Origin: Deltaproteobacteria bacterium
GTDB taxonomy: Bacteria > Desulfobacterota > Desulfobacteria > Desulfobacterales > ETH-SRB1
Direction of reading: 5' to 3'
DNA length: 11,771 nucleotides
Assembly (NCBI GenBank): GCA_030611115.1
Contig: JAUWQK010000013.1
Coordinates: 1-11,771 of the forward strand
Shown here: positions 1 to 11,771 of the stretch, piece by piece
Layout of the letters: each line of letters begins with the position of its first letter
How positions within the stretch are numbered: position 1 is the first letter of the stretch
The notes under the pieces: generated by a model
Databases searched by the model: none
The model's input: only the letters and a program-made list of their open reading frames with translations
Told to the model about the DNA's origin: nothing
Program-made: the position numbers and the translations under genes

Positions 1-290
1 GATGAATCAAAACGGAGCAGGTCATATTTGTCCTTAACATTAACTACATCGTAAAGATAAATGATGCTTTCAACCGCCTCTTGCTGGGCAAAGTAGTATT
101 CAAACTTCGCCATCGCGCCGCCTGATTTCGGCAGCATATGCTCTTGATTAAACCACCAGTTCAGCAAGGCGATACTGGTATCTATTGCCCCTTCATAGCC
201 GTTATCACGCCACGCCTTTACTTTTTTACGCAGTTCATGCACCAGAGGCGGCAACAGCTTTTCATAGCTTGATAGTATAGGAATTTCCAT
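1..290 (-). CDS. Type III restriction subunit R / DEAD-box helicase, N-terminus (partial)
   Basis: Only the first 96 codons lie in the window; the gene runs off the left edge. The reading frame is open from ATG at 288-290 (minus strand). The peptide starts MEIPILSSYEKLLPPLV and contains NGYEGAIDTSIALLNWWF followed by FEYYFAQQEAVESIIYLYDV. I recognise this 'GY.G..DTS..LLNWWF ... YYFAQ.EAVE..IYLY' block as the segment just before the helicase core in Res-type subunits of type III restriction enzymes and their DEAD/DEAH helicase relatives. Those proteins unwind or translocate on DNA using ATP and cut unmodified DNA together with a methyltransferase subunit. Walker motifs and the nuclease domain would be outside the window, so activity cannot be judged. 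The upstream Shine-Dalgarno match is poor (TAGGC). The family call is from recalled sequence similarity, not from a search. Confidence 0.7.
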   Translation of the reverse strand, partial: MEIPILSSYEKLLPPLVHELRKKVKAWRDNGYEGAIDTSIALLNWWFNQEHMLPKSGGAMAKFEYYFAQQEAVESIIYLYDVVNVKDKYDLLRFDS

Positions 291-337
291 TTTATGCCTA
301 ATGAATTCGGTATGATAGGATATAGGTGAATTTTTTT

Positions 338-462
338 GAACGTCCAACATCGAACACCCAACGTCGAACATCGAATGATGAAATCGCTTCGCTCTGCCGG
401 TTTATAAATTGGCAGAATACCTTATTCAAAATTCGATGTTGGGCGTTCGATGTTCGACGTTC
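338..462. repeat. Heptad-repeat hairpin A (GATGTTC family)
   Basis: The left arm (338-376) is five consecutive 7-bp units of the form (G/C)AAC(A/G)(T/C)C plus GAAT. The right arm (431-462) is ATTC followed by four units of GATGTTC type. The two arms are imperfect reverse complements that can form a stem of about 30 bp, with one heptad more on the left. The 54-nt loop contains its own small hairpin, CTGCC (394-398) with GGCAG (411-415). I found no target duplication at its edges. It lies between a divergent restriction gene and cbiQ and could act as a terminator or RNA-stability element, but the sequence does not prove this. Confidence 0.8.
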
Positions 463-652
463 ATCTTTTAAGTCCGCCCGAAGGGCGCTAATTTAATACG
501 CACCTTCTTCAAGTTGTGATTATATTTTATGATTTACTGGATAACTACAATGAAAGTTGGCTTTGTTTGTGCGTTTTATATAAAATCTTGTTTATCCTGT
601 TATCCTGTCAGGTTCTTTTTCAAAAGTCTAAATTGTTACAAGAAATGATGTA
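463..652. other. Non-coding spacer upstream of cbiQ
   Basis: I see no gene here. It contains a short hairpin GCCC-GAA-GGGC near 477-487, a 6-bp inverted repeat ACGCAC (498-503) / GTGCGT (569-574), and a tandem 8-mer TTATCCTG at 592-599 and 600-607. No convincing -35/-10 pair was identified, although the promoter for cbiQ should lie in this stretch. Just before cbiQ the string ATGATGTAATGG places a stop codon overlapping the cbiQ start, but no credible ORF leads into that stop. Confidence 0.5.
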
Positions 653-1411
653 ATGGCAGTCGAAGAATTAATAAGCATTGATTCGCTGATTAATCGCATT
701 GATCCCAGGGTTAAGATAATTGAGGTGTTTTTTTTCTCCATTGTTGTGGCTGTATCAAACAGTTTGCCGGTTCTTTTGTCAGCTCTTATTATTTCCCTCG
801 GTATTATTCTTACGGCCGGAATACCTGCAAGAGAAATTTTCAGGCGTCTTGTACCCGTCAATATAATGATAATTTTCCTCTGGTTTTTTCTTCCCTTTAC
901 TACTGAAGGGAAACCCCTGTTTAACATCGGCACGCTTGCGGTAACTCATGAAGGATTAATATATGCATTTCGTATAAGCATAAAGTCTAATGCCATGATG
1001 CTTATGCTGATCTCGCTTATAGCCTCAACTCCAATCTTTACACTGGGACATGCCATGCTTGAATTAAAGCTGCCCAAAAAACTGGTGCATCTTTTTTTCT
1101 TCACATACCGCTATATTCATGTCATGGATAAAGAATATATCCGCTTAATAAATGCCATAAAAATGAGAGGATTCAGGCCTGGAACAAATTTGCACACGTA
1201 CAGAACATTTGCTTATATAGTCGGCATGCTTTTGATAAAAAGCTTTGACCGTATGCAGAGAGTGCGTAATGCCATGCTGTGCCGCGGTTTTAAGGGTAAT
1301 TTTTACACCATTAGAAATTTTTCTTTTAAAAAAATTGATGCGATTTCTGTCGCTTTGATGATCGTGATTATAATGTTACTGGGGGTAATGGAGTGGACAA
1401 CAATAACCTGA
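653..1411 (+). CDS. cbiQ: ECF transporter transmembrane protein CbiQ (cobalt/nickel type)
   Basis: This is the membrane T-component of an energy-coupling-factor importer for Co2+ or Ni2+. It sits in the inner membrane and couples the ATPase to a substrate-capture protein. The 252-residue product has the family's usual length. It begins with the IDPRVKI segment (16-22) and has several hydrophobic helices (about 23-55, 68-82, 108-132, 183-196, 229-245). It contains both cytoplasmic coupling motifs that contact the ATPase: KMRGF (170-174) and LCRGF (209-213). The ATG at 653 is the only start after an in-frame stop at 629; its ribosome binding site is weak. The gene overlaps cbiO by 19 bp, so the two are co-translated. 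No substrate-specific CbiM/CbiN or NikM lies next to it in this window; the upstream gap holds repeats instead. The family is clear; whether the metal is cobalt or nickel is not. Confidence 0.9.
   Translation: MAVEELISIDSLINRIDPRVKIIEVFFFSIVVAVSNSLPVLLSALIISLGIILTAGIPAREIFRRLVPVNIMIIFLWFFLPFTTEGKPLFNIGTLAVTHEGLIYAFRISIKSNAMMLMLISLIASTPIFTLGHAMLELKLPKKLVHLFFFTYRYIHVMDKEYIRLINAIKMRGFRPGTNLHTYRTFAYIVGMLLIKSFDRMQRVRNAMLCRGFKGNFYTIRNFSFKKIDAISVALMIVIIMLLGVMEWTTIT
1381..1385 (+). promoter_or_regulatory. Ribosome binding site for cbiO GTG start
   Basis: GGGGG lies 7 nt before the GTG at 1393-1395 and inside the cbiQ coding region. It supports the GTG start, which puts the product at 242 residues, and implies translational coupling with cbiQ. 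Confidence 0.5.
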
Positions 1412-2121
1412 TCATCAATCTAATAGATATATCTTTCAGCTATCCTGGAGAAGCTGAAGTCCTTGATAAGCTAAACCTGCAGTTTTCAAGGAATGAAAAA
1501 ACAGGTCTAATGGGACCCAACGGCAGTGGGAAAACCACTCTTTTCCACATAATAATGGGCCTGTTAAAACCTTTGTCAGGTAACATTGAAATTTTTGGGA
1601 AGCCTGCAAAAGAAGAAAAAGACTTTATAGATGTGCGCAAAAGAATCGGCCTGCTTTTTCAGGACGCAGATGATCAGCTTTTCAGCCCAACCGTGCTGGA
1701 AGATGTTGCATTCGGCCCTTTGAATCTTGGCAAGTCAAAGGATGAAGCTATTGATATTGCTCGGAAAACTCTGGAATTCCTTGATCTTGCAGGATTTGAG
1801 GACAGGATAACCTACAAGCTGTCAGGTGGGGAGAAAAGGCTGGTATCACTGGCCACAGTCCTTGCCATGGAACCTGAAATACTGCTTCTTGATGAACCAA
1901 CTACAGGCCTCGACGAAAAAACTAAAACAAAGATAAAAAAAACTCTGCGTGAACTTGATCTTTCATATATACTGATATCACATGAATTTGATTTACTCTC
2001 TGAAATAACGGATTCAATATATACAATGGACAAAGGGAAAATACTTTTTGACAAGGAAGTCCATCTGCACGAGCATGTTCACGCCCATCCCCATGGTTCA
2101 TATTCCCACGAACATGAGTAA
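1393..2121 (+). CDS. cbiO: ECF transporter ATP-binding protein CbiO
   Basis: This is the ABC-type ATPase that powers the CbiQ membrane component. All nucleotide-binding elements are present and intact: Walker A GPNGSGKT (41-48), Q-loop Gln90 in LLFQDADDQLFSP, signature LSGGE (143-147), Walker B ILLLDEP (163-169) and H-loop His197. The Q-loop region, with DQLF, is typical of ECF A-components. After the catalytic domain comes a short tail (about 221-242) with eight histidines, mostly alternating with other residues, which looks like a Ni2+/Co2+/Zn2+ binding tail. It starts at GTG 1393 inside the end of cbiQ (19-bp overlap). The next gene in the same direction is almost 600 bp away, so cbiQO probably forms a two-gene unit. 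Confidence 0.93.
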   Translation: MDNNNLIINLIDISFSYPGEAEVLDKLNLQFSRNEKTGLMGPNGSGKTTLFHIIMGLLKPLSGNIEIFGKPAKEEKDFIDVRKRIGLLFQDADDQLFSPTVLEDVAFGPLNLGKSKDEAIDIARKTLEFLDLAGFEDRITYKLSGGEKRLVSLATVLAMEPEILLLDEPTTGLDEKTKTKIKKTLRELDLSYILISHEFDLLSEITDSIYTMDKGKILFDKEVHLHEHVHAHPHGSYSHEHE

Positions 2122-2142
2122 CATTTAATGTAAACATTCACG

Positions 2143-2307
2143 TGACTACTCACGTAGTCAGACTGAAGCTGTTTAGGCTGAAGGCTGAAGGGGGTCAGAA
2201 GAGTACGATTGCCGTACTTTGGCGGAAACATCTGATTCTTGCACCAAACATGGCTTCAAAATGCGCTTTTTCCTAACAGCCTTCAGCCTATCCACCTGAG
2301 TAGTTAC
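2143..2307. mobile_element. MITE-like element with terminal inverted repeats and 8-9 bp target duplication
   Basis: About 165 bp bounded by terminal inverted repeats: GTGACTACTCA at 2142-2152 and the reverse complement of GTAACTACTCA at 2297-2307 (10 of 11 match). The element is flanked by a perfect direct repeat ACATTCACG at 2134-2142 and 2308-2316, as expected for a target-site duplication (8 or 9 bp, because one G is shared). Inside is a second, perfect 14-bp inverted repeat, TAGGCTGAAGGCTG (2174-2187) with CAGCCTTCAGCCTA (2277-2290), made of AGGCTGA heptads. There is also a 6-bp-stem hairpin AGTACG/CGTACT (2202-2207, 2213-2218). It has no coding capacity worth naming, so a non-autonomous element mobilised in trans is the simplest reading. 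Confidence 0.65.
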
Positions 2308-2310
2308 ACA

Positions 2311-2433
2311 TTCACGGAACGTTGAAATTGGAAATTTGGCCTTCATGCTTTTGTACTGTTCTTCCCAATTTCCAATTTCTATTTTAATCTCTCCCTGATT
2401 TCTACTTTCCAATTTCGAGCTTCAAGCCGTGAA
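2311..2433. repeat. Heptad-repeat hairpin B' (GAAATTG family)
   Basis: Outer arms TTCACGG (2311-2317) and CCGTGAA (2427-2433) are inverted. Inside them, GAAATTGGAAATT (2324-2336) pairs perfectly with AATTTCCAATTTC (2367-2379), and a further CAATTTC lies at 2409-2415. The arms again follow a 7-bp period (GAAATTG / CAATTTC). A small hairpin AGCCG-TGAA-CGGCT overlaps the right edge (2425-2438). It starts exactly at the target duplication of the neighbouring MITE-like element, so that element may have inserted into the left end of this one. Confidence 0.65.
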
Positions 2434-2567
2434 CGGCTACCAAATAAATTTATTGTAAAAAATCTATAATAATGGTATAAAAAAAGTTAGAATTTTGAAA
2501 ATCAAAAAACATTCCGGCTTCCCTTCAGAAGTTGTAAAAAAGGAAAAGCCGCTTAATTTCTTGTTTT
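2434..2567. other. AT-rich non-coding stretch before cytochrome genes
   Basis: No gene supported. It contains TATAAT at 2465-2470 and TATAAA at 2476-2481, plausible -10 boxes for the cytochrome operon, but no good -35 hexamer stands at the right distance. It may therefore hold the promoter, with low confidence. Confidence 0.3.
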
Positions 2568-2673
2568 TAATACCTAAGTTGAGCGATTCTTTGCGAAGAA
2601 ATGTGCCAGGATCTTGATGCGCAAGAAATTGGTGCAGGTCGAGTAAAAAATCGCTCAATTTAGCTAAGTATTT
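2568..2673. repeat. Long inverted repeat / structured leader before cytochrome 1
   Basis: TTGAGCGATT (2579-2588) and AATCGCTCAA (2649-2658) are perfect inverted arms. They extend imperfectly outward (AATACCTAAG against CTAAGTATT) to about 2568 and 2673. Inside is a second stem TTGCG (2591-2595) / CGCAA (2620-2624) and an imperfect direct repeat (2593-2610 against 2619-2638, both of the form GCG.AAGAAAT...GCAGG or GCCAGG). It ends about 45 nt before the ATG of the first cytochrome gene, so the mRNA leader could fold. It does not use the 7-bp word structure of the other repeats here. It could be a regulatory leader or a small insertion remnant. Confidence 0.5.
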
Positions 2674-2718
2674 AGGAGATCACATTAGCTTGTAAAAGAG
2701 TGGAAAAAGGAGACGGGG

Positions 2719-3702
2719 ATGGAAAAAAAGCATAATATTTTAATTTACGGTTTTATTGCATTAATTTTCTTGAGTGTGTTTGTTATGTCAAGATTTCAAA
2801 AAGCTCCGCAAACAGAGGTTCAAAAGGCTTCAATAGAAGAAGCCGAACAAGTTCTGCCGGAAAATGTTGAACCGGAACCTGCAGCGGAAGTTGAGCCGAC
2901 TGTTGAAGCTGAACCGGAACCCGTAGCGGAAGTTGAGCCGACTGTTGAAGCCGAACCGGAACCCGCGCCGACAGTTGAGGTTAAACCGGCCGATTTTGAT
3001 ATAATTCCATTAGAAGATCAGGACTGTACAAAATGTCATCCATATGCTGTCAAAGATATCAACGAACGTGGCGGATTGCACCAGTCAATAGGTTGCAGCG
3101 AATGTCACCTGGAACATCCACCACTTGGAAAGAATCCGATTCCAACATGTGAAATGTGTCATGATCCTGGAGATGCAACGCATTATAACATCAAAAATTG
3201 CAGCGCTTGCCATTACCCGCATTATCCCACTGAGATGGAGTTCGGTGAAATCGATGCGTCTGCCTGCCTTTCATGTCACCCGGATCAAGGTAAAGAAATG
3301 GAAGCAAAACCGAGCGAACACGCCGGTTTAAATTGTACTGAATGCCATATGGTTCATCGTGAGTGGGCTAACTGTGCGGATTGTCATACTCCCCATGCTG
3401 AGGAAATGACCCATGCGGATTGTCTCGCCTGTCACAAGCCGCATAGTCCCAAAGCAGTCAATTATGCTGATGGTATTCCCAATAATTACTGCGCTTGCTG
3501 TCATGAAGATGTGGGCAATGCCCTTGCATCAAGCAAGAAAGCTCATTCTGAAATGGGCTGCATAGAATGTCATGAGAGCGAGCATATGGCGGTCACACAA
3601 TGTGACGGGTGCCACGACGCCGATCTGCATGGCGCCACTATGCATGAACGATACCCGTTATGCCTTGACTGTCATAATAATCCTCATGCATTAGCAGAGT
3701 AG
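2719..3702 (+). CDS. Membrane-anchored dodecahaem c-type cytochrome
   Basis: The 327-residue product has 12 CXXCH haem-attachment motifs with first Cys at 103, 126, 144, 161, 183, 206, 219, 235, 258, 281, 295 and 315. It is presumably an electron carrier on the outer face of the inner membrane. The N-terminus has a basic stretch (MEKKH) and a hydrophobic helix at about 8-24 without an obvious cleavage site, so it is probably a signal anchor. Residues about 50-90 form a Glu/Pro linker with a 14-residue repeat (EPEPAAEVEPTVEA). The haem part is an 8-haem module (103-245) followed by a 4-haem module (258-320), with the same motif spacing as the downstream cytochromes. The start is well supported by AAGGAG at 2706-2711. 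Many extra His residues may be distal haem ligands. Redox partner and location beyond the periplasm are not shown by the sequence. Confidence 0.9.
   Translation: MEKKHNILIYGFIALIFLSVFVMSRFQKAPQTEVQKASIEEAEQVLPENVEPEPAAEVEPTVEAEPEPVAEVEPTVEAEPEPAPTVEVKPADFDIIPLEDQDCTKCHPYAVKDINERGGLHQSIGCSECHLEHPPLGKNPIPTCEMCHDPGDATHYNIKNCSACHYPHYPTEMEFGEIDASACLSCHPDQGKEMEAKPSEHAGLNCTECHMVHREWANCADCHTPHAEEMTHADCLACHKPHSPKAVNYADGIPNNYCACCHEDVGNALASSKKAHSEMGCIECHESEHMAVTQCDGCHDADLHGATMHERYPLCLDCHNNPHALAE
2869..2979 (+). repeat. 42-bp in-frame tandem repeat coding for Glu/Pro linker
   Basis: Two full 42-bp copies (2869-2910 and 2911-2952) differ at only a few positions, and a third, truncated copy starts at 2953. 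Each full copy encodes 14 residues (EPEP-A/V-AEVEPTVEA). The near identity suggests recent slippage, so linker length is likely to vary between strains. Confidence 0.85.
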
Positions 3703-3723
3703 AAAATAAAGTACTTAGGTTTA

Positions 3724-3795
3724 AGGGTTCAGCGTTCAACGGTTCACGGTTAAAAGCCGACAACCCTTGAACCCTGAACCCTGAACCTTGAACCC
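3724..3795. repeat. Heptad-repeat hairpin C (GGGTTCA family)
   Basis: The left arm (3724-3751) is built of GGGTTCA-like units and the right arm (3761-3795) of CCCTGAA-like units, separated by a loop of about 10 nt. The arms are imperfect reverse complements, so a stable hairpin is expected in the 105-nt spacer between cytochromes 1 and 2. It lies 25 nt before the ATG of cytochrome 2 and could attenuate transcription or stabilise the upstream mRNA. No target duplication seen. Confidence 0.75.
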
Positions 3796-3809
3796 AAAGC
3801 CCTATACGT

Positions 3810-3814
3810 GGAGG
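3810..3814 (+). promoter_or_regulatory. Ribosome binding site deciding the cytochrome 2 start
   Basis: GGAGG lies 5 nt before ATG 3820. It selects that ATG over an in-frame GTG at 3808, which would put the GGAGG inside the coding region. Confidence 0.75.
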
Positions 3815-3819
3815 CAAAG

Positions 3820-5082
3820 ATGAGAAAAAAGGTGTTTGTCAGTATTATTAGTTGGTTAGCTATGCTTCTCTTTAGCACCTTGTCTTTGGCTGAGAACAAT
3901 TCTCTTGAATTAGTCGAAGGGGATTGTATCAAGTGCCATCCGCGCAACATACGGGAAATCAATGAGCGGGGGGCATTGCATAAAACAAAAGTCACTTGTA
4001 TTGATTGTCACGAGGAACATCCCCCCCATGGGAAAAATATCATTCCAAAATGCAGTGCTTGTCACGCACCTGATACAAGTTCCCATTATGCTCTAAAAGA
4101 GTGCAAAAAGTGCCATCATCCACATTACCCCAAAGAGATGGATCTGAGCAAAATCGATAATGTAAAACCGGCCTGTGTATCCTGCCACCCAACTGAAGGG
4201 CAGGAGAACCGGACATATCCAAGTGCGCATTCCGAATTAGACTGCAAAGAGTGCCATTCAAAGCATGGCGAATCTACTGCATGCCTGGAATGTCATGAGC
4301 CTCATTCACCTGAAATGAACGATAAGGACTGCTTCCTTTGTCATAAACCTCATCGTCCCTCAGCAATCGAGTATGATGCTGTAGTTCTTCCGGCTTTATG
4401 CGCCAGTTGTCATGATGAAACGGTAAATGCAGTTGACGAGCGTGGAGGAGCGCACAAATCAGTCAAATGTATTGATTGCCATCAGCAGCATCCTCCTGCT
4501 GAAAAAAATGTTATTCCAAAATGTTCTCTGTGTCATGTGCCGTCAGATAAACCACACTATAAGGTGGAAAATTGTGCATCATGCCACCATCCTCATTATC
4601 CCATGGAGATGGATCTGAGCAAGGCTGATTCTGTTAACTCGGCCTGTGTATCCTGCCATCCGTACCAGGGTAAAGAGATGAAGGCGCATCCGAGCGAACA
4701 CGCCGGATTAGACTGCAATGAATGCCATGTAAAGCATGGCGAATCTTCATCATGCCTGGAATGTCATGAGGCGCATACAGAGGAAATGGCCCTTGATGAT
4801 TGTCTGCGATGCCATAAACCCCATATGCCGTTGGAAGTAATCTATGGCGAAGACATTGACACGTCTTTCTGTTTAATCTGCCACGAACTTGTGGGGGAAA
4901 AGATGTCAGCAGTAAGTCAGACAAAACATCATGAATTAGGATGTGTGTATTGTCATAAAAACAAGCATAAAAGTTTACTTAAATGCAAAACATGCCATGG
5001 GGAACCGCATAAATACGATATTCATGCAAAATTTCCGGATTGCCTTGCATGTCATCAAGATCCTCATGGATTGATCAAGTAA
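3820..5082 (+). CDS. Periplasmic/exported 20-haem c-type cytochrome
   Basis: From ATG 3820 the product is 420 residues, with a typical signal peptide (MRKK, hydrophobic core, probable cleavage after LSLA at residue 24). It has 20 CXXCH motifs, first Cys at 36, 60, 78, 95, 119, 142, 155, 171, 194, 217, 235, 252, 276, 299, 312, 328, 351, 375, 389 and 408. Residues 36-190 and 194-345 are two tandem copies of the 8-haem module (spacings agree to within one residue), followed by the 4-haem module (351-412). Each 8-haem copy carries the conserved pieces IN/DERG..H, (E/Q)HPP..KN(I/V)IPKC and CHHPHYP.EMDLSK. Such a haem density points to long-range electron transfer, possibly along or out of the periplasm. 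That role is inferred; I cannot assign a named cytochrome family. It sits between two related cytochrome genes but is separated from each by a repeat hairpin. Confidence 0.92.
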   Translation: MRKKVFVSIISWLAMLLFSTLSLAENNSLELVEGDCIKCHPRNIREINERGALHKTKVTCIDCHEEHPPHGKNIIPKCSACHAPDTSSHYALKECKKCHHPHYPKEMDLSKIDNVKPACVSCHPTEGQENRTYPSAHSELDCKECHSKHGESTACLECHEPHSPEMNDKDCFLCHKPHRPSAIEYDAVVLPALCASCHDETVNAVDERGGAHKSVKCIDCHQQHPPAEKNVIPKCSLCHVPSDKPHYKVENCASCHHPHYPMEMDLSKADSVNSACVSCHPYQGKEMKAHPSEHAGLDCNECHVKHGESSSCLECHEAHTEEMALDDCLRCHKPHMPLEVIYGEDIDTSFCLICHELVGEKMSAVSQTKHHELGCVYCHKNKHKSLLKCKTCHGEPHKYDIHAKFPDCLACHQDPHGLIK

Positions 5083-5181
5083 GAAATGGTTTACGGTTCA
5101 CAGTTCACGGTTCACAGTTAACAAAGATAGACAGTAGATAAGAATTATTGAAATCAATATTCAAAATGCTTCAACCTGTGC

Positions 5182-5216
5182 GGTTAGCCATTAGCCATTA
5201 GCGTTTAGCCGTTAGC
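5182..5216 (+). repeat. CATTAGC heptad array inside element D
   Basis: Five consecutive 7-bp units all ending in TTAGC or TTTAGC (GGTTAGC, CATTAGC twice, GTTTAGC, CGTTAGC). Only the first unit has an inverted partner (GCTAACC, 5312-5318), so the array seems to have expanded on one side only. Confidence 0.8.
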
Positions 5217-5234
5217 ATTGAACAAGGGGTGGGA

Positions 5235-5375
5235 ATGAGAGATTTTAGAGAACTTAATCAACAGGTCAATGAGGTAGAGGTAAAGAGGATGTTGAACAGT
5301 TTTATCCAAAAGCTAACCGCACAGGTCGAAATGCTACAGCCGTTGCATGGCTCATTAAAAAACTGTGAACTGTGA
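5235..5375 (+). pseudogene. Remnant of a four-helix-bundle (23S rRNA IVS / S23-type) protein gene
   Basis: A 46-codon ORF with a good ribosome binding site (AAGGGGTGGG before ATG 5235). The start MRDFREL matches the usual opening of four-helix-bundle proteins found in 23S rRNA intervening sequences (MRDFR.LKVW...). The following part, VNEVEVKRMLNSFIQKL, matches their usual C-terminal helix (EV.EVKRML..LI.KL). The family is about 115-125 residues long, so roughly 70-80 central residues, including the expected VW.KAH segment, are missing, joined in frame. The last codons run into the right heptad arm. I call it a decayed gene; translation of the short peptide cannot be excluded. The family match is from memory of the family, not from an alignment. 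Confidence 0.5.
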
Positions 5376-5421
5376 ACTGTGAACCGACAACTGTAAACCG
5401 AATAAAAGATGGGGACACAAA

Positions 5422-6270
5422 ATGGGAAGAAAGTTTTTCGCCGACATTGTTGGTTGCACTTTGATCATATACTTGAGCTTGAGCGCCTTTTCGTTGATTA
5501 ATGTCGCTGCTGAAGAGTGTGGTACTGCGTTTTACGAGCAAAGAATCGAACCGATTACAAATCGTGATTGTGCCCGGTGTCATTTTTCAGTTTTTACGGA
5601 CATTAGAGACAAAGGTGGAGCACATCAGGTGGTTTGCAAGAAATGTCACAAAATATTTCACACATATAAACCGGGAAAAAACTGGAAAGACGTTGTTCCC
5701 AACTGCACTGACTGCCACACCCTATTCCATGGAGCCGGTTTTCCAGACTGCCTGCGGTGTCATGAAAATGCTCATGCACCTGTAGATAGTCTAAGTTTTG
5801 AAAAAATGGTTGAGGATTGCGGCAACTGCCATATTGATCAGGCAGCCGAGACAACTCAAAACCTTAGCGCACATACCGACACTGCATGCTCTTCATGTCA
5901 CCACGACAGGCACGGCTACATACCGACTTGTATCGAATGCCATGATAAAACACATACACCATTTATCGGAAATACGGGGTGTAATGCTTGCCACCCGAGT
6001 CATTCGCCCTTGATGGTCGGCTATACCGAAGATGCGGCAGATGCTGTCTGTACGGGTTGTCATGCTGATGTCGGCAACAAATTATTGAGCGGCAATAATA
6101 AACATAGTTTTCTTAAATGCGCCAATTGCCATGCTGATAAGCACCGATATATTCCAATGTGCCGGGAGTGTCATGGGCAGGAACCCCATTCAAAGGAATT
6201 GCTTGAGAAATTCAGCAGTTGTAATGATTGTCACGGAGATCCGCATACTCTGATTTTGCAGTTACCGTAA
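5422..6270 (+). CDS. Exported dodecahaem c-type cytochrome
   Basis: The 282-residue product has a signal peptide (positively charged start, hydrophobic 10-27, likely cleavage after NVAA at about 30). It has 12 CXXCH motifs with first Cys at 50, 72, 95, 110, 133, 156, 170, 187, 210, 233, 247 and 267. The 8+4 layout and the CHADVGN/KHSFLKC...KH...MC.ECHG pattern at the C-terminus match the other two cytochromes, but the 8-haem part is more diverged (it lacks the HPP..KN block). One additional Cys (33) outside any haem motif follows the signal peptide. GGGGA at 5411-5415 is the ribosome binding site. The next gene starts 35 nt downstream, so the two are probably co-transcribed. Expected role: periplasmic electron transfer with its two paralogues. 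Confidence 0.9.
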   Translation: MGRKFFADIVGCTLIIYLSLSAFSLINVAAEECGTAFYEQRIEPITNRDCARCHFSVFTDIRDKGGAHQVVCKKCHKIFHTYKPGKNWKDVVPNCTDCHTLFHGAGFPDCLRCHENAHAPVDSLSFEKMVEDCGNCHIDQAAETTQNLSAHTDTACSSCHHDRHGYIPTCIECHDKTHTPFIGNTGCNACHPSHSPLMVGYTEDAADAVCTGCHADVGNKLLSGNNKHSFLKCANCHADKHRYIPMCRECHGQEPHSKELLEKFSSCNDCHGDPHTLILQLP

Positions 6271-6305
6271 ACATTGTGCCCCAAACAAAGCCAAAGGGTC
6301 GCTAA

Positions 6306-7391
6306 ATGACGATAGAAAAAAAATTAAGGTCTGTAGCATTGTTTCTTGGAATTTGCCTGGGTATTTATGTTATTTTCATGCTCTATTATCTACTTGGGGA
6401 TGGCTGCTGGAATTGCAGCCCGCAAGATTATTATTCCAGAGGAATAGCGATGATATCAGAGGATGATAATAATGATCTGAAAAAGGGAGTCAAATATCTT
6501 AAGACAGCAGCAAAAAAAGGTAATATTAAAGCAATTATCTTTCTTGGAGAACTATATTCGGACGATTTCCCGGGTGCGTACATTACAGACAACAAAGAGA
6601 AAATCGCAACTCTTAGAAGTCTAATATCTGCAAATATTAAGAAACGAGAATCATATTTTAATGAGTTAATCGAAAATCAATCTTTTTTTGATAGAAAATA
6701 CAGCAAGGCGCAATACAATCTCGGCATTTTATACAAAGCCGGCATCCTGAAAAGTGAAGATAAAGAGGAAGCGTACAAAAAATGGTTAACAATATCGGCT
6801 GATAACGACAATCCTCTTGCCATTTATCAAATGGGCATCTTCTTTAATAATAAAGGCAAATATATGGAAGCACTGAAATGGTTCACAAAAGCGTTTGATT
6901 CCAGCCGGGAGCCTGCTTCAGCAATAATGATCGGGGATTATTATTTTTACGGCAAAGGCGTGGCAAGGGATTACCAGCAATCAATAGAGTGGTATCAGCA
7001 GTCTTTGAGTGCGCCGGCATTACCAGATGCTTCTTTATGGATCAAAAATAAAGAAGAACTGACTGAATGGGCGACCCAGAGATTAAATATTGCAGAAAAA
7101 AAAGTTCGCAGTAAAATGTCAAAACAAGTCGTTATTGTTAAATATCGTATCATAGGCGGTTTAAATTCATTTTCAATTTTTACATCAGATCTGAAGGAAA
7201 ATCTTATTGGTAAAGTAAAGAAACAAGACGACTATATCCGGGCGCGGTCTAACATAATGATCAAGTCGGTCTCCATCTCAAAATCAGCTAAGGTTGATTC
7301 TATGAGCGAAGGCCTGCATTGGGTGCTGACCACATATGCTAAAAATAAATATGGGGCTGATAAGGATTTCAATTTTGTCATTACAAAGTAA
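6306..7391 (+). CDS. Sel1-repeat (TPR-like) membrane-anchored protein
   Basis: A 361-residue protein with one N-terminal transmembrane or signal-anchor helix (about 9-30). Several Sel1/TPR-like helical repeats follow: about 42-85 (GVKYLKTAAKKGNIKAIIFLGELY), 131-165, 170-205, and the clearest at 205-235 (IMIGDYYFYGKGVARDYQQSIEWY). A C-terminal region of about 90 residues (270-361) is not recognised. Sel1 repeats are protein-protein scaffolds. Placed 35 nt after the third cytochrome gene, it may help assemble or anchor the cytochromes, but this is inferred from position. The ribosome binding site is AAGGG at 6294-6298. A CWNC pair at 34-37 just after the membrane segment is a possible redox or disulfide site; it is not a haem motif since no His follows. 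Confidence 0.8.
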   Translation: MTIEKKLRSVALFLGICLGIYVIFMLYYLLGDGCWNCSPQDYYSRGIAMISEDDNNDLKKGVKYLKTAAKKGNIKAIIFLGELYSDDFPGAYITDNKEKIATLRSLISANIKKRESYFNELIENQSFFDRKYSKAQYNLGILYKAGILKSEDKEEAYKKWLTISADNDNPLAIYQMGIFFNNKGKYMEALKWFTKAFDSSREPASAIMIGDYYFYGKGVARDYQQSIEWYQQSLSAPALPDASLWIKNKEELTEWATQRLNIAEKKVRSKMSKQVVIVKYRIIGGLNSFSIFTSDLKENLIGKVKKQDDYIRARSNIMIKSVSISKSAKVDSMSEGLHWVLTTYAKNKYGADKDFNFVITK

Positions 7392-7397
7392 GTGAGT

Positions 7398-7474
7398 AGG
7401 CTGAAGGCTGAAGGTTGAAGGTTAAAGGCTAAAGGTTGAAGGTTGAAGGTTAAAGGCTGAAGGCTGAAGGCTTT
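7398..7474 (+). repeat. AGGCTGA heptad tandem array E
   Basis: Ten consecutive units in perfect 7-bp register (7398-7467), variants AGGCTGA, AGGTTGA, AGGTTAA and AGGCTAA, then a degenerate AGGCTTT. Unlike the other arrays it is mostly one-sided: the only inverted partner is CCTTCGGACTGTCTACCTGAG (7480-7500) for the first unit and its flank. It shares both the heptamer and the right-end string ACCTGAGT with the MITE-like element at 2143-2307, so the two are probably relatives. It begins 7 nt after the Sel1 gene's stop codon and ends before the next gene's ribosome binding site. Confidence 0.85.
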
Positions 7475-7527
7475 TAGGGACCTTCGGACTGTCTACCTGA
7501 GTTTTTTATAATAAGGAGAATATATGT

Positions 7528-8274
7528 ATGTCTGAATTAGACAATAATGGCTTCAAAGGCATATCTACGCTTTTTGATGCAACTGAATTAAAAAAATTTA
7601 TTAAATATTACATCAGCTTGATTTTTTTGCTGGAAATTATAATTTTTGGATCTTGCTTTCTTTTCCAGCTTGAACCGGTCAATCTTCCTTTTCCCTGGAA
7701 ATACTATTTTCTCGCATCTTTTTTGGTGCCGATTGGAGTAACATTCATATTGGGCATTTTTATAACTGCCTTTAATTTATTTATTTTCGGTCATTCTACT
7801 CCTCAAACTGTGGATTCCGGGTCATCTGAGGAGGATAATGAAAAAAACAATCCTTTTAATAAAATAAATGCATCATTAACTTTAATTCGACAGGCCCCCT
7901 TTTTACTGACTTTGCTATTATTGGGCATTGGTTCTATAATTTTTTCTCAATTAGACAATTTGATAATATTTCTGGGAGAGATAGGGGTAAAAACCGTGGA
8001 GTATGCTCTTATCATCCTTGGAGTTGTTTTTGCCGTTGCGGTAGTTTTTGCATTGATCTGGATTTTTATGAAATATAAATTAGAAAAGATGAAATACGAT
8101 TATCAATATAAACAGGATGTAATGTCGCAGTTGGGCTTACTTGTCCTCGATAAAAACACCGTGGTAAATCATGAAGGAGAAGTTATAAACAAAAAAAAGA
8201 AACTGTTATTAGGGAAAACCAAAAGCGATAAAGATGCATTATTAATCGCCCAATCAACAAGACAGCAAAGATAG
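7528..8274 (+). CDS. Hypothetical four-helix integral membrane protein
   Basis: I do not recognise a family. The 248-residue product has four hydrophobic helices (about 27-46, 60-88, 123-143, 157-181). An acidic, hydrophilic loop (about 92-118, with SSEEDNEKNN) lies between helices 2 and 3. A charged, Lys-rich C-terminal region of about 65 residues is probably cytoplasmic (YKLEKMKYDYQYK, NKKKKLLLGKTK). An even number of helices with a basic tail suggests both termini are inside. AAGGAG at 7513-7518 supports the ATG at 7528; the ATG at 7524 leads to a three-codon dead end. It follows the Sel1 gene on the same strand and could belong to the cytochrome operon, but the heptad array between them may separate transcription. 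Confidence 0.7.
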   Translation: MSELDNNGFKGISTLFDATELKKFIKYYISLIFLLEIIIFGSCFLFQLEPVNLPFPWKYYFLASFLVPIGVTFILGIFITAFNLFIFGHSTPQTVDSGSSEEDNEKNNPFNKINASLTLIRQAPFLLTLLLLGIGSIIFSQLDNLIIFLGEIGVKTVEYALIILGVVFAVAVVFALIWIFMKYKLEKMKYDYQYKQDVMSQLGLLVLDKNTVVNHEGEVINKKKKLLLGKTKSDKDALLIAQSTRQQR

Positions 8275-8288
8275 TACTGCCTTATGAA

Positions 8289-9620
8289 TTAAAAAAGTTT
8301 TAGAAATACAAAGATCCACAGAGGTATAAGTTCGATGGTTTTTCCATTCAGTGTTTTTCTTTCAAAATGCTTTTTGGTCACAATTATGGATCTTTCAGGC
8401 GTTGCAATTTTTGAGAAGGCTTTGAATGCCTCGAACTCTCGGGTCGGTAATTCGTCAGTATATGATACATTGATTGCAATCGGCTGGTTGCGTGGTTTTA
8501 TGACGAAATCTATCTCTTTTTTACTGCTGTCTTCATACCAGTAATAGACCTTATCGGTTATTCGCCTTAACATTTGAAATACAGTATTCTCAGCATACCT
8601 TCCACTGTCTTTCGAAAAAGAGAATGAAGTTGCATCTCTCATTCCGCAGTCCACGGCATATATTTTTCTGTTCCTTTTAAACTGCTTTTTAAGAGAATAC
8701 TCAAAATAATCTACAGAAAAAAACAGATAAGCTTTTTCAAAATAAGAGAGATACTCTTTAACTGTATTCTCATTGGTTCCCACTGCATCTGCAAGTTTTC
8801 TGTAAGAATATATGGAAGTGAAGTTTGTAGAAAGATAATATGCCAATTGTTCAATGACTTTTGTTTTCCTGATAGAGAACCTGCGCACAATATCCCGAAA
8901 CAGCACATTCTGAAAATATTGCGAAAGAATATCTTTAACAAGTTCAATGTCCTCAAGATACGCAACTTCCGGGAACAGCCCTCTTTTAAAACTCAATTCA
9001 ATATAATGCAGAAGTTTCTCTTTATATGGATACAAATGTTCATAAAGTTTTTCAGGGCTGTATGATTCAGTAAGTTCCGGGAGATGGGGATCATTCAGCC
9101 CTTTAAAATATTCAGTAAAAGAAAATGGAAAATTATCAAAAGCAAGTACTCTGCCTGTGAGATGTGTGGCAAGCTCATCAGAAAGAAGCTCGGCATTTGA
9201 ACCTGTTATGAAAATTTTGACGTGCTCATTTCTGTCATATATATCTCTTACCCAAAACTGCCAGTTATTTATATTCTGTATTTCATCCAGAAACAGATAA
9301 ACCTTTCCGGCAGGATTTTTTATGTTAAGAAATTCCGAATAAAGATTTTCAAATATAGAAATATCATTACGCAAAGAAATAAAGAACGGATCTTCGAAAT
9401 TGACCTGCAGAATGTTTTCCCGCTTTACTTTGGAATCAATAAGGTGCTTGATAAGTTGTCTAAAAATGTAAGATTTGCCTGATCTTCGAGCTCCGGATAT
9501 TGCGACCACGTAGCGGATATCAAGTGTTTTGATAATCTTTGCAAGAAGATCTCTTTTTATACCAGTATCAAAGCTCCTGTCATGCCACTGGTAATTATGT
9601 TTTAGCAGAACTTCTTTCAT
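8289..9620 (-). CDS. AAA-type ATPase with DUF4143 domain
   Basis: A 443-residue protein of the AAA_14/DUF4143 family: an N-terminal P-loop ATPase and a C-terminal nuclease-like fold. Seen directly: Walker A GARRSGKS (43-50), Walker B VYLFLDEIQN (107-116), the FITGSNAELLS sensor segment (137-147), TGR (155-157), a winged-helix-like stretch (about 270-300), and a C-terminal region with E344, KEIDF (368-372) and AINVSY (382-387). The last part resembles a PD-(D/E)XK core in which the usual Lys is absent, so nuclease activity is doubtful. The cellular role of these ATPases is not established; they are common in archaea and anaerobes and are often found near mobile or defence genes. The gene converges with the membrane protein gene (14-nt gap) and diverges from cas6. 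There is no Shine-Dalgarno match before ATG 9618-9620. Confidence 0.85.
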   Translation of the reverse strand: MKEVLLKHNYQWHDRSFDTGIKRDLLAKIIKTLDIRYVVAISGARRSGKSYIFRQLIKHLIDSKVKRENILQVNFEDPFFISLRNDISIFENLYSEFLNIKNPAGKVYLFLDEIQNINNWQFWVRDIYDRNEHVKIFITGSNAELLSDELATHLTGRVLAFDNFPFSFTEYFKGLNDPHLPELTESYSPEKLYEHLYPYKEKLLHYIELSFKRGLFPEVAYLEDIELVKDILSQYFQNVLFRDIVRRFSIRKTKVIEQLAYYLSTNFTSIYSYRKLADAVGTNENTVKEYLSYFEKAYLFFSVDYFEYSLKKQFKRNRKIYAVDCGMRDATSFSFSKDSGRYAENTVFQMLRRITDKVYYWYEDSSKKEIDFVIKPRNQPIAINVSYTDELPTREFEAFKAFSKIATPERSIIVTKKHFERKTLNGKTIELIPLWIFVFLKLF

Positions 9621-9623
9621 TTT

Positions 9624-9674
9624 TGCGAATTATATCTCATATTAACATCATTAATATGCTAATTATAATTCGCA
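9624..9674. promoter_or_regulatory. Nested palindrome in the ATPase/cas6 divergent region
   Basis: Outer arms TGCGAATTATA (9624-9634) and TATAATTCGCA (9664-9674) are perfect inverted 11-mers. Inside them CATATTAA (9638-9645) and TTAATATG (9651-9658) form a second perfect 8-bp pair, centred within 1 nt of the first. The whole 51-bp unit lies 3 nt upstream of the ATPase ATG and provides TATAAT-like -10 boxes for the minus strand. A dimeric repressor operator is the simplest reading. If the TATAAT at 9629-9634 is used, the ATPase mRNA would be nearly leaderless, which fits its missing ribosome binding site. Confidence 0.5.
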
Positions 9675-9815
9675 TATCATGTTTTGTCAAGAAAAGCTTT
9701 TTTCAAACGCTCCTCTCCTTTGATGGCAAGGTTGCAAGGCTTGCTATATGAAAAAGTTCATGTTATTTTCGGAGAAATTTGATCAGAACTTTAAGAAAAT
9801 GTTTGAGTATTTGCA

Positions 9816-10754
9816 ATGCGTTACGGAAAATACCGATTTCTTTGCAGGCTTGAGAATAAGGCAAGCCTGCCATTTTACAAAGGATCAACTTTCAGAGGTG
9901 CATTTGGTCTGGCCTTGAAAAATATTGTATGCGCTCTAAAGAGAGAAGAGTGCACCAAATGCCTGCTGAAGCAAAAATGTGTTTATGCCCTGGTCTTTGA
10001 AACATCCGGGGCCATGGAGCTGTCTGAAGGCTCAAGAATCGCTTCGCCTCCACACCCATTTGTAATTGAACCTCCGCTGACAACTGAAACGGAATTTCAG
10101 GAAGGAGCATTATTTGATTTTAACTTTCTCCTTTTTGGTGAAGTAAACAATAGTCTCCCTTATTTCATTTATGCCTTTGACCGTATGGGCAAGATCGGCA
10201 TTGGAAAGAAAATTAACGGCAAACGGAGCCGATTTGCTTTGGAAGTGGTGAGACATGGGAAACAAATTGTTTATTCCGACGTTGACCAGAAACTGAAGTC
10301 GCCTGATTCTTTAGAGGCTTTATCCTTTTTCGCCATAACCGACTATCCGAAAAGCAGTTTTCGTTTCAAAATTATTCTTGAAACACCACTTCGCCTCAAG
10401 TTCAAAAACCGGTTTAAGGCTGAACTGCCGTTTCACGTCCTTGTCAGAGCCATGCTCAGGAGAGCGTCTTCCCTTCTCGACTGTTATGGAGACGGCGAAC
10501 CTCTCCTGGATTACCGAGGGCTTGTGAAAAGGGCTGAAACAGTTCACGTTGTTGATACAAATCTCAGTTGGTTTGACTGGAAGCGTTACTCGCATCGCCA
10601 GGACAAAAGCATGCTTATGGGCGGTATGATCGGTTCCGTAATCTTTGAGGGAAAGATCGGAGAATATCTACCTCTCATTGAGTTCTGCTCAAAGACACAT
10701 TTGGGAAAGCAGACCTCGTTTGGACTGGGTAAAATCAAAGCGGAGAAGATATAA
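9816..10754 (+). CDS. cas6: CRISPR pre-crRNA endoribonuclease Cas6
   Basis: A 312-residue RAMP-fold protein that would cut the CRISPR transcript into crRNAs. Evidence: the N-terminal LPFYKGSTFRGAFGLALK block (18-35), followed by a Cys cluster (39, 46, 49, 55; CTKCLLKQKC) and the VFE segment, all typical of one Cas6 branch. At the C-terminus, GGMIGSVIFEG and the glycine-rich loop GKQTSFGLGKI (297-307) are the RAMP signature. The catalytic residue is not obvious; His-containing YSHRQDK just before the C-terminal motif and the N-terminal half offer candidates. ATG 9816 is the only good start after an in-frame stop at 9804, with a weak ribosome binding site. The stop TAA shares its last base with the next gene's ATG (TAATG), so the two genes are translationally coupled. 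Confidence 0.85.
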   Translation: MRYGKYRFLCRLENKASLPFYKGSTFRGAFGLALKNIVCALKREECTKCLLKQKCVYALVFETSGAMELSEGSRIASPPHPFVIEPPLTTETEFQEGALFDFNFLLFGEVNNSLPYFIYAFDRMGKIGIGKKINGKRSRFALEVVRHGKQIVYSDVDQKLKSPDSLEALSFFAITDYPKSSFRFKIILETPLRLKFKNRFKAELPFHVLVRAMLRRASSLLDCYGDGEPLLDYRGLVKRAETVHVVDTNLSWFDWKRYSHRQDKSMLMGGMIGSVIFEGKIGEYLPLIEFCSKTHLGKQTSFGLGKIKAEKI

Positions 10755-11771
10755 TGAAGACCGTCATCTTAGCCGTAACCGGATTAAGCCCTCAAGTTAT
10801 CACCGAAACCCTGTATGCGCTGCACCAGAGCAGCCGGCATGTGGATGCGATACATGTGATTACAACACGAGATGGGAAGGAAAAAATCTTTGCTGAACTT
10901 TTGGGTGGAAAAAACGGGCACTATTACCGATATCTGAAAGAATACAGCATTGACCCCGCAACCATAGACTTCGGTCACCGGAATATTCATGTAATTACTG
11001 ATGAATACGGCATTGAGCTGCCGGATATCGAGAGTGAATCAGACAATGAACAGCTTTTAAAAAAATGCATGGACCTGGCTTTTTATTTTACAAAAGATCC
11101 TGAAACCGCCGTGCTCTTTTCCATAGCCGGTGGTCGCAAGACCATGAGTTCCTGCCTGACCCTGGCGGCCCAGATGTATGGCCGTCCGCAGGACCGCCTC
11201 TACCATGTGCTGGTTTCCCCGGAATTTGAAAGCAACCGCAATTTCTTTTATCCTCCCAGGAAGTCGCAAGCCATTGAACTTAGAAACAACCAGAGGCAGC
11301 CGTTCTACAAGGAAACAAAATTCGCGCAGATCAACCTCATCCATATCCCGTTTGTTTCTATCAGGGATAACTTATCCGGTGATATGCTCAAAGAACCGAA
11401 AGAGCCCGGCACACTTGCTCTTTCCTTAATCAAGGAGGAAACATCTCGCCTTACCGTTAATCTGATTTCAGGCAAAATTACTTACAAGAAAATGGAATTC
11501 GATATGATGCTTGCCCCTCTGGCATTGTATACATTCTTTGCGATGCAAAAAAAGAATTGCTTAAAAGAAGTCGAGACCTGCGGCAATTGTATTGACTGCT
11601 TTCTTGATGTTCATGCGGTTTATGAAAAGCAGAAAGAGATAAACAATATATACAAAAAAATATCCGGCAGCCGCCCCTTAGATGAAATGAGCGATACCGG
11701 CATCGTCAAATTGAACTCTGACAACTTCAGCGCCTACAAGGCAAAAATAAAAGCTAATCTGCTTGGCAGAT
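10754..11771 (+). CDS. CRISPR-associated CARF/ring-nuclease family protein (NE0113 / Csm6-like), partial
   Basis: 339 codons are open to the window edge with no stop; the 3' end is missing. The start MKTVILAVTGLSPQVITETLYAL and the SIAGGRKTM motif (123-131) are hallmarks of the NE0113 family (annotated as Csm6-type CRISPR ring nuclease), which binds cyclic oligoadenylate made by type III CRISPR effectors. The Rossmann-like CARF part covers about 1-225. A C-terminal region follows, with a winged-helix-like stretch (about 235-265) and a CGNCIDC cluster (266-272) that may bind zinc. No HEPN RNase motif (R-x4-6-H) was recognised in the visible part. Known for the family: signal sensing and turnover. 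Inferred: a regulator or off-switch of a type III system whose cas10 and csm/cmr genes should lie to the right. Confidence 0.8.
   Translation, partial: MKTVILAVTGLSPQVITETLYALHQSSRHVDAIHVITTRDGKEKIFAELLGGKNGHYYRYLKEYSIDPATIDFGHRNIHVITDEYGIELPDIESESDNEQLLKKCMDLAFYFTKDPETAVLFSIAGGRKTMSSCLTLAAQMYGRPQDRLYHVLVSPEFESNRNFFYPPRKSQAIELRNNQRQPFYKETKFAQINLIHIPFVSIRDNLSGDMLKEPKEPGTLALSLIKEETSRLTVNLISGKITYKKMEFDMMLAPLALYTFFAMQKKNCLKEVETCGNCIDCFLDVHAVYEKQKEINNIYKKISGSRPLDEMSDTGIVKLNSDNFSAYKAKIKANLLGR

Follow-up and report, generated by a model that had tools for sequence, protein, structure and literature searches.

Intergenic heptamer arrays of a Desulfobacterota contig as probable arms and remnants of small elements with an S23 gene

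Short tandem arrays with a 7-nt unit occupy intergenic gaps of an 11,771-nt stretch of a Deltaproteobacteria contig (JAUWQK010000013.1, positions 1 to 11,771; hereafter the window). We conclude with high confidence that these arrays derive from several small elements of a single class, either as their arms or as what remains of them; in this class a gene of the S23/IVP family (PF05635) lies between arms made of a repeated word, and two of the window's elements are nested insertions with target duplications. A complete element measures ~430 bp at the best-defined site and holds, as its sole gene, that for the four-helix-bundle S23/IVP protein, with an inverted arm on each side, mostly of 3–8 tandem copies of a 7-nt word (sometimes 8 or 9 nt). 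Since the arms are inverted, they can pair in the transcript as a long stem that encloses the gene. The elements decay by losing the gene.

The 7-nt periodicity that a first-pass annotation had noticed in the gaps of the window is real. When local self-matches were scored at each lag from 4 to 30, lag 7 reached 155.5, whereas 20 first-order Markov shuffles averaged 2.8 and peaked at 20, and the signal is particular to this length: its multiples 14, 21 and 28 were also strongly raised, lag 30 was just above its shuffles, and no further lag was clearly prominent. Tandem Repeats Finder placed period-7 arrays at 338–375, 432–462, 2175–2191, 2365–2379, 3718–3751, 3762–3795, 5096–5123, 5184–5216, 5361–5384 and 7398–7472. 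Their units abut, with no unique spacers between them, and we agree that they are not clustered regularly interspaced short palindromic repeats (CRISPR). An inverted-repeat search returned inverted arms at six stretches (338–462; 2142–2307, 72% complementary; 2324–2379; 3721–3785; 5088–5399; 5170–5330) and, at the settings used, no pair at 7390–7530. RNA folds were far more stable than those of shuffled sequences for 337–463 (z −10.1), 3717–3804 (z −6.7) and 5085–5402 (z −8.3), moderately so for 2308–2437 (z −2.7) and not significantly so for 7390–7500 (z −1.6); an Rfam scan of the window gave no match. The elements and their parts are as follows.

337..463, no strand assigned: F4 hairpin element (GATGTTC/GAACATC), two heptamer arms around a conserved loop
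2130..2440, no strand assigned: F1 element (GAAATTG word), ends GTAAACATTCAC and GTAGCCGTTCACGG, interrupted by F2a
2142..2307, no strand assigned: F2a element (AGGCTGA word), ends GTGACTACTC / GTAACTACTCAGG, inserted in the left end of F1
3717..3789, no strand assigned: GGGTTCA hairpin between two cytochrome genes, arms nearly loopless
5088..5401, + strand: F5 element (GGTTCAC word), outer arms 5088–5123 and 5361–5401
5171..5328, + strand: F6 element (TTAGCCA word), inserted in F5, holding an internally deleted S23 gene
5235..5328, + strand: deleted S23 open reading frame (ORF) of F6, its start MRDFREL joined to the C-terminal part
5331..5375, + strand: probable remnant of the C-terminus of the F5 S23 gene, MLQPLHGSLKNCEL, compared by eye with KILQSLHSSLKKL in locus L131
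7395..7495, no strand assigned: expanded AGGCTGA array of the F2 family, ~10 units, with decayed ends and no clear hairpin

F6 is the sole window element with a scored S23 copy, and that copy is deleted: the protein of L137, a longer S23 ORF with the same arms, matches 5244–5321 at 84.6% identity (tblastn, E 8e-9). A 7-bp duplication, AAATGCT, borders F6 at 5164–5170 and 5329–5335, and what had been described as one array region at 5088–5399 is corrected to two nested elements. The outer one, F5, has arms of 36 nt that are 83% complementary. An S23 gene in the relative G002 (L131) has arms that by eye are similar to those of F5, and was not picked as its counterpart by formal word comparison; the stretch 5331..5375, too short for a formal score, is probably what is left of the C-terminus of the F5 gene.

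The second nested pair lies at 2130–2440. Here the array at 2174–2290, listed earlier as an array of its own, belongs to F2a, which is nested within the element ending at 2440, and F2a is flanked by a perfect 8-bp duplication, ACATTCAC, at 2134–2141 and 2308–2315. Two F2a copies in G002 (91–92% identity) each have a perfect 8-bp duplication as well, and two S23 loci, L132 and L264, share the F2 word. The interrupted element, F1, appears to be a miniature derivative of an S23 element. Its region 2296–2486 had up to 26 blastn matches in an 800-kb sample of G002 (400 kb from the starts of contigs C1–C5 and 400 kb mostly chosen for AGGCTGA repeats), and their alignment shows precise ends. Five of these copies retain 66–230 nt of S23 coding sequence, the longer loop in some reading as part of the S23/IVP protein. 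Their best match is L158 (in G008), where an F1-like left end and arm precede a 117-aa S23 ORF and the right side is lost at the contig end. In the window itself the F1 target duplication is not clear (CATTTAAT/CAAATAAA, 3 mismatches). F4 has 49-nt arms that are 80% complementary, and its loop recurs in related elements of the 800-kb G002 sample.

The word AGGCTGA is seen twice in the window because 2142–2307 and 7395–7495 are one family. It is also the only window word that matches S23 arm words strongly (0.90 with L264, and 0.80 with several other S23 words); the words at 338–375, 3762–3795 and 5088–5123 reached 0.70 at most, and the F4 word no better than 0.69 with any S23 arm. Word similarity alone was dropped as a tie between the window arrays and S23 genes, being strong only for AGGCTGA.

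The tie comes instead from the S23 genes. PF05635 had matches in 8 of 8 close-relative genomes, in 7 of which they passed the curated cut-off; across the phylum, 87 of 148 genomes had a match, 82 of them above this cut-off. Complete S23 genes were often found between inverted periodic arms, every one with its own word. At an inverted-flank score of at least 12, such arms accompanied 60 of 82 S23 genes in Desulfobacterota against 1 of 41 other ORFs of the same loci, and 11 of 20 against 1 of 7 in plasmids, mostly cyanobacterial. In viral contigs the figures were 30 of 43 and 1 of 45. Once S23 proteins had been dereplicated at 90% identity, the three S23 counts stood at 56/78, 10/19 and 24/33. 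The Desulfobacterota loci comprised 30 of 50 close-relative matches, 30 from the phylum scan and 40 picked among the high-scoring matches listed, a choice that favours well-preserved S23 genes; requiring full flanks took 85 S23 ORFs and 68 controls to 82 and 41. The plasmid set was 20 places, out of 5 and 27 records, and the viral set 46 loci from one scan, 43 of them usable. The S23 profile of this study comes from 28 sequences.

Scored by period (lag score of at least 9 on one side), period 7 was found at 45/82 S23 genes versus 6/41 controls in Desulfobacterota, 14/20 versus 2/7 in plasmids and 34/43 versus 8/45 in viral contigs. The corresponding figures were 19/82 versus 3/41, 6/20 versus 0/7 and 2/43 versus 3/45 for period 8, and 4/82 versus 3/41, 0/20 versus 1/7 and 1/43 versus 1/45 for period 9. 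Taking for each gene the best of five periods (6–10), 124 of 149 S23 ORFs had a periodic arm (period 7 in 97, 8 in 23 and 9 in 4), a share that this choice inflates, the flank counts from the three sources being those with controls. The two arms of one element resemble each other (similarity 0.80, against 0.50 across elements, n=61; 52 of 61 above the 95th percentile), which bears out the suggestion that the word is constant within a hairpin; that it is random between hairpins did not hold. The 162 period-7 arms span 1.9 to 19 units, 126 of them between 3 and 8, the commonest value being 4.3, and the upstream arm is G-rich on the gene's sense strand (G exceeding C in 106 of 124). The case for ribosome-binding-site motifs among the words was unconvincing (26 of 124, versus 19 with one shuffle per word). 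As a side observation, the S23 gene lies in opposite orientations in L163 and L167 at what is by eye apparently the same place, as if inverted between its arms.

Among 16 S23-coding stretches (the G002 sample and the window), 8 are no more than 150 bp from a period-7 array, against a base rate of ~7%; the remaining 8 include L047, which is the gene of L145 and has period-8 arms. Stretches of at most 40 kb per genome from 10 S23-rich genomes, taken from the highest S23 counts, held 18 period-7 arrays in 280.6 kb. The 9 S23-free genomes, chosen as 10 from the 20 listed among 61 and then reduced by G044, whose stretches read N, had a single array in 241.4 kb. The difference has p 0.0001 by bases and p 0.03 by genome, any array being present in 5 of 10 versus 1 of 9 genomes; arrays within one genome are not independent, so the by-genome value is the safer one.

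Both the word and its length follow the S23 protein lineage, in one case between phyla. For 271 pairs of different loci with at least 50% protein identity, mean word similarity was 0.503 versus 0.309 after permutation (maximum 0.360 of 500). With 90% dereplication and permutation within source (230 pairs, no same-locus filter) it was 0.512 versus 0.320 (maximum 0.388 of 1000), and the same period was shared by a fraction of 0.822 of these pairs versus 0.655 permuted (maximum 0.774). Between 60 and 80% identity, a similarity of 0.75 is attained by 30% of same-period pairs when read in sense and by no pair in antisense; at 80% or more (4 pairs only), the fractions of pairs that reach it are 0.75 in sense and 0.25 in antisense. 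One lineage, FQDLIVWQKAHQ, has similar words (0.68–0.87), typically TCAGAAG/TCAGGAG, in Desulfobacterota and Cyanobacteria. Such coupling could come from co-inheritance alone and is no proof of binding. Tolerance of G-U pairs would be expected to enrich the arms in transitions; no such excess was seen, the ratio being 1.36 in arms versus 2.39 between the window and L002.

Occupied and empty sites, together with short target duplications, indicate that these are mobile elements. At site I, an S23 element is present in Trichormus and Scytonema plasmids where Fremyella has a 13-bp gap; the surrounding DNA is 97–98% identical, and the ~430-bp insert has GTAAT as its duplication. At site II, two Nostoc plasmids hold the element and three do not (duplication TTCTA); site III (L284 versus L301) has an imperfect duplication, TAATG/TTATG; and at site IV (L287 versus L299) the comparison is not clean. 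The duplications quoted are by-eye readings, an automated comparison at site I having given an overlap of 8 with mismatches. Both arms are plain at the occupied sites I and II, and the empty sites lack heptamer arms. L297 at the place of site I is seemingly a decayed copy, and L300 at that of site IV carries a similar heptamer word as inverted repeats and lacks an annotated S23 gene. In cyanobacterial plasmids S23 genes are located between cas6 and cas4, between cmr genes and between ribonucleotide reductase genes; L280, L285 and L286 lie within cas or cmr gene rows, and L283, L285 and L286 have inverted flanks, L280 falling below threshold (5.2).

These comparisons bear on polymerase slippage alone, by which heptamers would arise anywhere, without any underlying element, because a length of 7 nt suits the polymerase. 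Slippage has been proposed for the bacterial excess of heptamers, according to the available part of PMC4692102, and unit number does differ between close relatives, the upstream arms of L288 and L298 by two units. Arrays are nevertheless rare in the S23-free genomes sampled (1 in 241.4 kb), the arms are inverted around one gene family, the unit length of 7, 8 or 9 tracks the protein lineage, that is, the element and not the host, and the empty sites have no heptamer arms; we regard slippage without an element as highly improbable.

Close relatives of the window show the same turnover. Its second cytochrome led to eight loci in public genomes, four of them at 84–95% protein identity (L001–L004), all in Deltaproteobacteria drafts, two of which carry EthSRB1 in the contig name. 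The gap corresponding to 5083–5421 is short and array-free in L001, L002 and L003 and holds a different array in L004; that at 2122–2440 lacks both elements in L003 and L004, F1 thus being absent from the same gap in both. At 7392–7527 the hairpin is minimal in L002 and intermediate in L003, and L004 lacks such an array; at 3703–3807 a GGTTCA-like hairpin is kept in L002–L004, while the left part in L001 is another repeat. Arrays therefore come, go and change size within one lineage, and the comparison of gaps between relatives that the first-pass annotation had called for finds them present, absent or resized from one to the next. Binding sites for a regulator, or transcription terminators, kept for the benefit of the host would not be expected to vary in this way at the same gap, nor would their word track the S23 protein. 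The arrays do sit in short intergenic gaps, and similar ones were taken as regulator sites in Geobacter metallireducens (available part of PMC2700814) and as possible translational sites in Beggiatoaceae (likewise for PMC4679880); even so, we give a host-kept function very little credence.

G002, the genome of L002, had 41 period-7 arrays in 400 kb at score 12, where a third-order Markov control had none, and the enrichment anticipated from the window was thus recovered; lags other than multiples of 7, compared in the first 400 kb only, gave 0–6 arrays each. The 800 kb contained 65 array clusters, and 56 of these carry a window-family word or one of the related TTAGC family, the motifs for this assignment having been drawn up from the same data. 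Several families have conserved ends and loops. That one process and not one ancestral word lies behind the arrays stands in so far as a single kind of element accounts for them; the words are not independent inventions, as they recur in dispersed families.

Copies with GTRA ends have multiplied in this lineage as miniature elements with 8-bp duplications. F1 copies in G002 have such a duplication (at most 1 mismatch) in 14 of 20 cases, 9 of them perfect, against 3 of 380 mismatched pairs with none perfect, and 3 of 6 F2 rows, the window copy included, have a perfect one. Sharp inverted ends, a target duplication and a lack of coding sequence, the traits of miniature inverted-repeat transposable elements (MITEs), are those of F1 and F2, yet five F1 copies keep partial coding. 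The sharp GTRA ends and 8-bp duplications would also suit ordinary MITEs or repetitive extragenic palindromes (REPs) moved by RAYT or another transposase, with the S23 gene a chance passenger, and RAYT-like genes (Y1_Tnp) occur in 8 of 8 genomes with 77 matches. When 23 ORFs (22 distinct genes of the 77 matches, some with one flank missing) were viewed by eye, no F1, F2 or F5 ends were seen beside them, and L086 had only a short 7-nt run. S23 elements elsewhere, as far as inspected, keep periodic arms without GTRA ends. To our knowledge, RAYT elements are not expected to make 8-bp duplications. We consider such a passenger role very unlikely. REP/REPIN and other RAYT-linked repeats are alike in being dispersed palindromes with GTAG-like ends (available part of PMC3733652), and the present elements differ from them in their 8-bp duplications, in arms periodic at 7 nt and in that the 22 inspected RAYT-like genes are not flanked by window-type repeats. 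IS66 was rejected as a mover, PF03050 being found in 1 of 4 genomes as a fragment and not in G002, where the duplications were counted; and in L043, where 2.4 kb separate two F2 ends, the long ORFs between them were not transposase-like by eye. Separately, RAYT-like genes at L084, L085, L098 and L107 stand beside GGGGTCA-type repeats, similar to the genes linked to terminal inverted repeats in the part of PMC3733652 that was available.

A further possibility is retro-mobility, in which S23, as a relative of Avd, works with a reverse transcriptase in trans and the hairpin RNA is copied back. PF05635 is reported to be homologous to Avd of diversity-generating retroelements in the available text of PMC10053308, a likeness that would favour it. 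RVT_1, however, was not found in 49 of 87 S23-bearing genomes, a count in which drafts may miss genes; both occurred in 38 genomes, RVT_1 only in 19 and neither in 42 (odds ratio 1.7, p 0.17), so that, unlike in diversity-generating retroelements, the association of RVT_1 with S23 across genomes is not significant. We hold this route to be unlikely. The data gathered also gave no sign of the hairpin-primed copying that had been suggested for the arrays, no direct test having been aimed at that copying.

The first-pass annotation knew of no named system that explains the arrays; a close one exists in the intervening sequences (IVSs) of 23S rRNA. Besides that of Coxiella, further 23S rRNA IVSs contain an S23/IVP gene. 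In our own set, an S23 gene lies inside a 23S rRNA on an Azospirillum lipoferum plasmid (L295; Rfam LSU_rRNA_bacteria, 1707 bits), with heptamer arms on both sides, the upstream one judged by eye. No other S23 locus was found in 23S rRNA, either among the ten loci scanned with Rfam or in an exact-motif scan of L129–L295. In the available part of PMC4990558, the Coxiella IVS is described as having an S23 gene, a 28-bp terminal stem and, before the S23 start codon, three tandem heptamers GACAGAT whose number depends on the strain, and as being cut by RNase III in vitro. As far as that portion of the source goes, IVSs and the elements described here thus share an S23 gene, a terminal inverted stem, heptamers beside the start codon and variable unit number; within our material, the PF05635 gene and complementary ends recur, with 7390–7530 as the exception in the window. 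The window elements are unlike IVSs in lying between protein genes, none in an rRNA gene, in having lineage-specific words of 7, 8 or 9 nt on both sides and in their many gene-less miniatures. The shared architecture supports the view that rRNA IVSs belong to the same wider class of elements.

Heptamer repeats have also been described in Xanthomonas, Nostoc, Geobacter and Beggiatoaceae, where the available parts of the reports (PMC4692102, PMC2700814, PMC4679880) explain them by slippage, quadruplexes or regulators. So far as those parts describe them, the arrays of cyanobacteria, Xanthomonas, Geobacter and Beggiatoaceae resemble ours in being intergenic 7-nt tandems of few units, some of them inverted. 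MTYCTGA, the consensus in Geobacter, where 15 of 16 sites have five units (available part of PMC2700814), resembles, on the other strand, the S23-lineage words TCAGAAG/TCAGGAG. Term searches found no mention of S23 in the accessible text of PMC4692102 and PMC2700814, and neither 'four helix' nor '23S' in that of PMC4679880; a link between heptamer arrays and S23 was not found in the literature, a search of open-access papers only and weak evidence of absence. A close relative being already known in the rRNA IVSs with S23, what is newly proposed here could be the tie of S23 to intergenic heptamer arrays.

Several observations weigh against S23-type elements as the source of the arrays. No S23 remnant was recognised in the loops at 338–462 and 2142–2307, and 9 of the 65 array clusters in G002 match no family motif. 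Below the inverted-flank threshold are 22/82, 9/20 and 13/43 S23 genes of the three sources, among them the rRNA case (L295, 10) and the two clearest empty-site cases (L288, 11.6; L292, 7.6). L288 and L292 fall short because the gene runs into the downstream arm, their arms being plain by eye, and L295, at a score of 10, because the predicted start falls in the arm. Only half of the S23-coding stretches (8 of 16) are near a period-7 array, and half of the sampled S23-rich genomes have none in the stretch taken. Duplication lengths differ (8 in F1/F2a, 7 in F6, ~5 in cyanobacteria), so there may be several movers. Finally, in the available part of PMC4990558 the Coxiella authors regard production of the S23 protein in the cell as improbable and attach more importance to the RNA; in that system this counts against the protein as the functional component.

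How S23 elements would work can be sketched from these comparisons. The S23 protein may read its own word as a row of repeated sites, and two solved S23 relatives have five chains per entry, which we take to be a pentamer; five units per arm as a fit to a pentamer was not decisive, the commonest value being 4.3. The number of tandem units would change by slippage or recombination, and the arms might be cut in RNA by RNase III, as in vitro for Coxiella, which would let insertion in transcribed gene rows be tolerated. A bolder version, which we put forward tentatively and consider more doubtful than not, holds that S23 elements are self-sufficient mobile DNA without a classical transposase; that a pentamer reads the word, one unit per subunit, different lineages reading different words of 7, 8 or 9 nt; that protein and word move together between phyla; and that rRNA IVSs are copies that landed in rRNA. 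If this were true, the S23 family would be a natural catalogue of word readers. More generally, one element class could account for many of the heptamer arrays reported in distant bacteria and may explain gaps that differ between close strains, the orphan S23 family could be placed in a setting other than rRNA, and it could become possible to test directly how a protein is coupled to a nucleic-acid word.

The window has other features besides these elements. A dispersed palindromic repeat without 7-nt periodicity, at 2553–2675, was matched by blastn as many as 40 times in the 800-kb G002 sample, and a second dispersed repeat at 491–656, present in L008, had up to 5 matches over 583–644 in G002. 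Three multihaem cytochrome genes stand in tandem at 2719–6270, with similar DNA in L001–L004, and a Cas6 gene (PF10040) lies near the window end at 9816–10754. At window position 8284, L002 is longer than the window by ~5.6 kb (L002 14192–19796).

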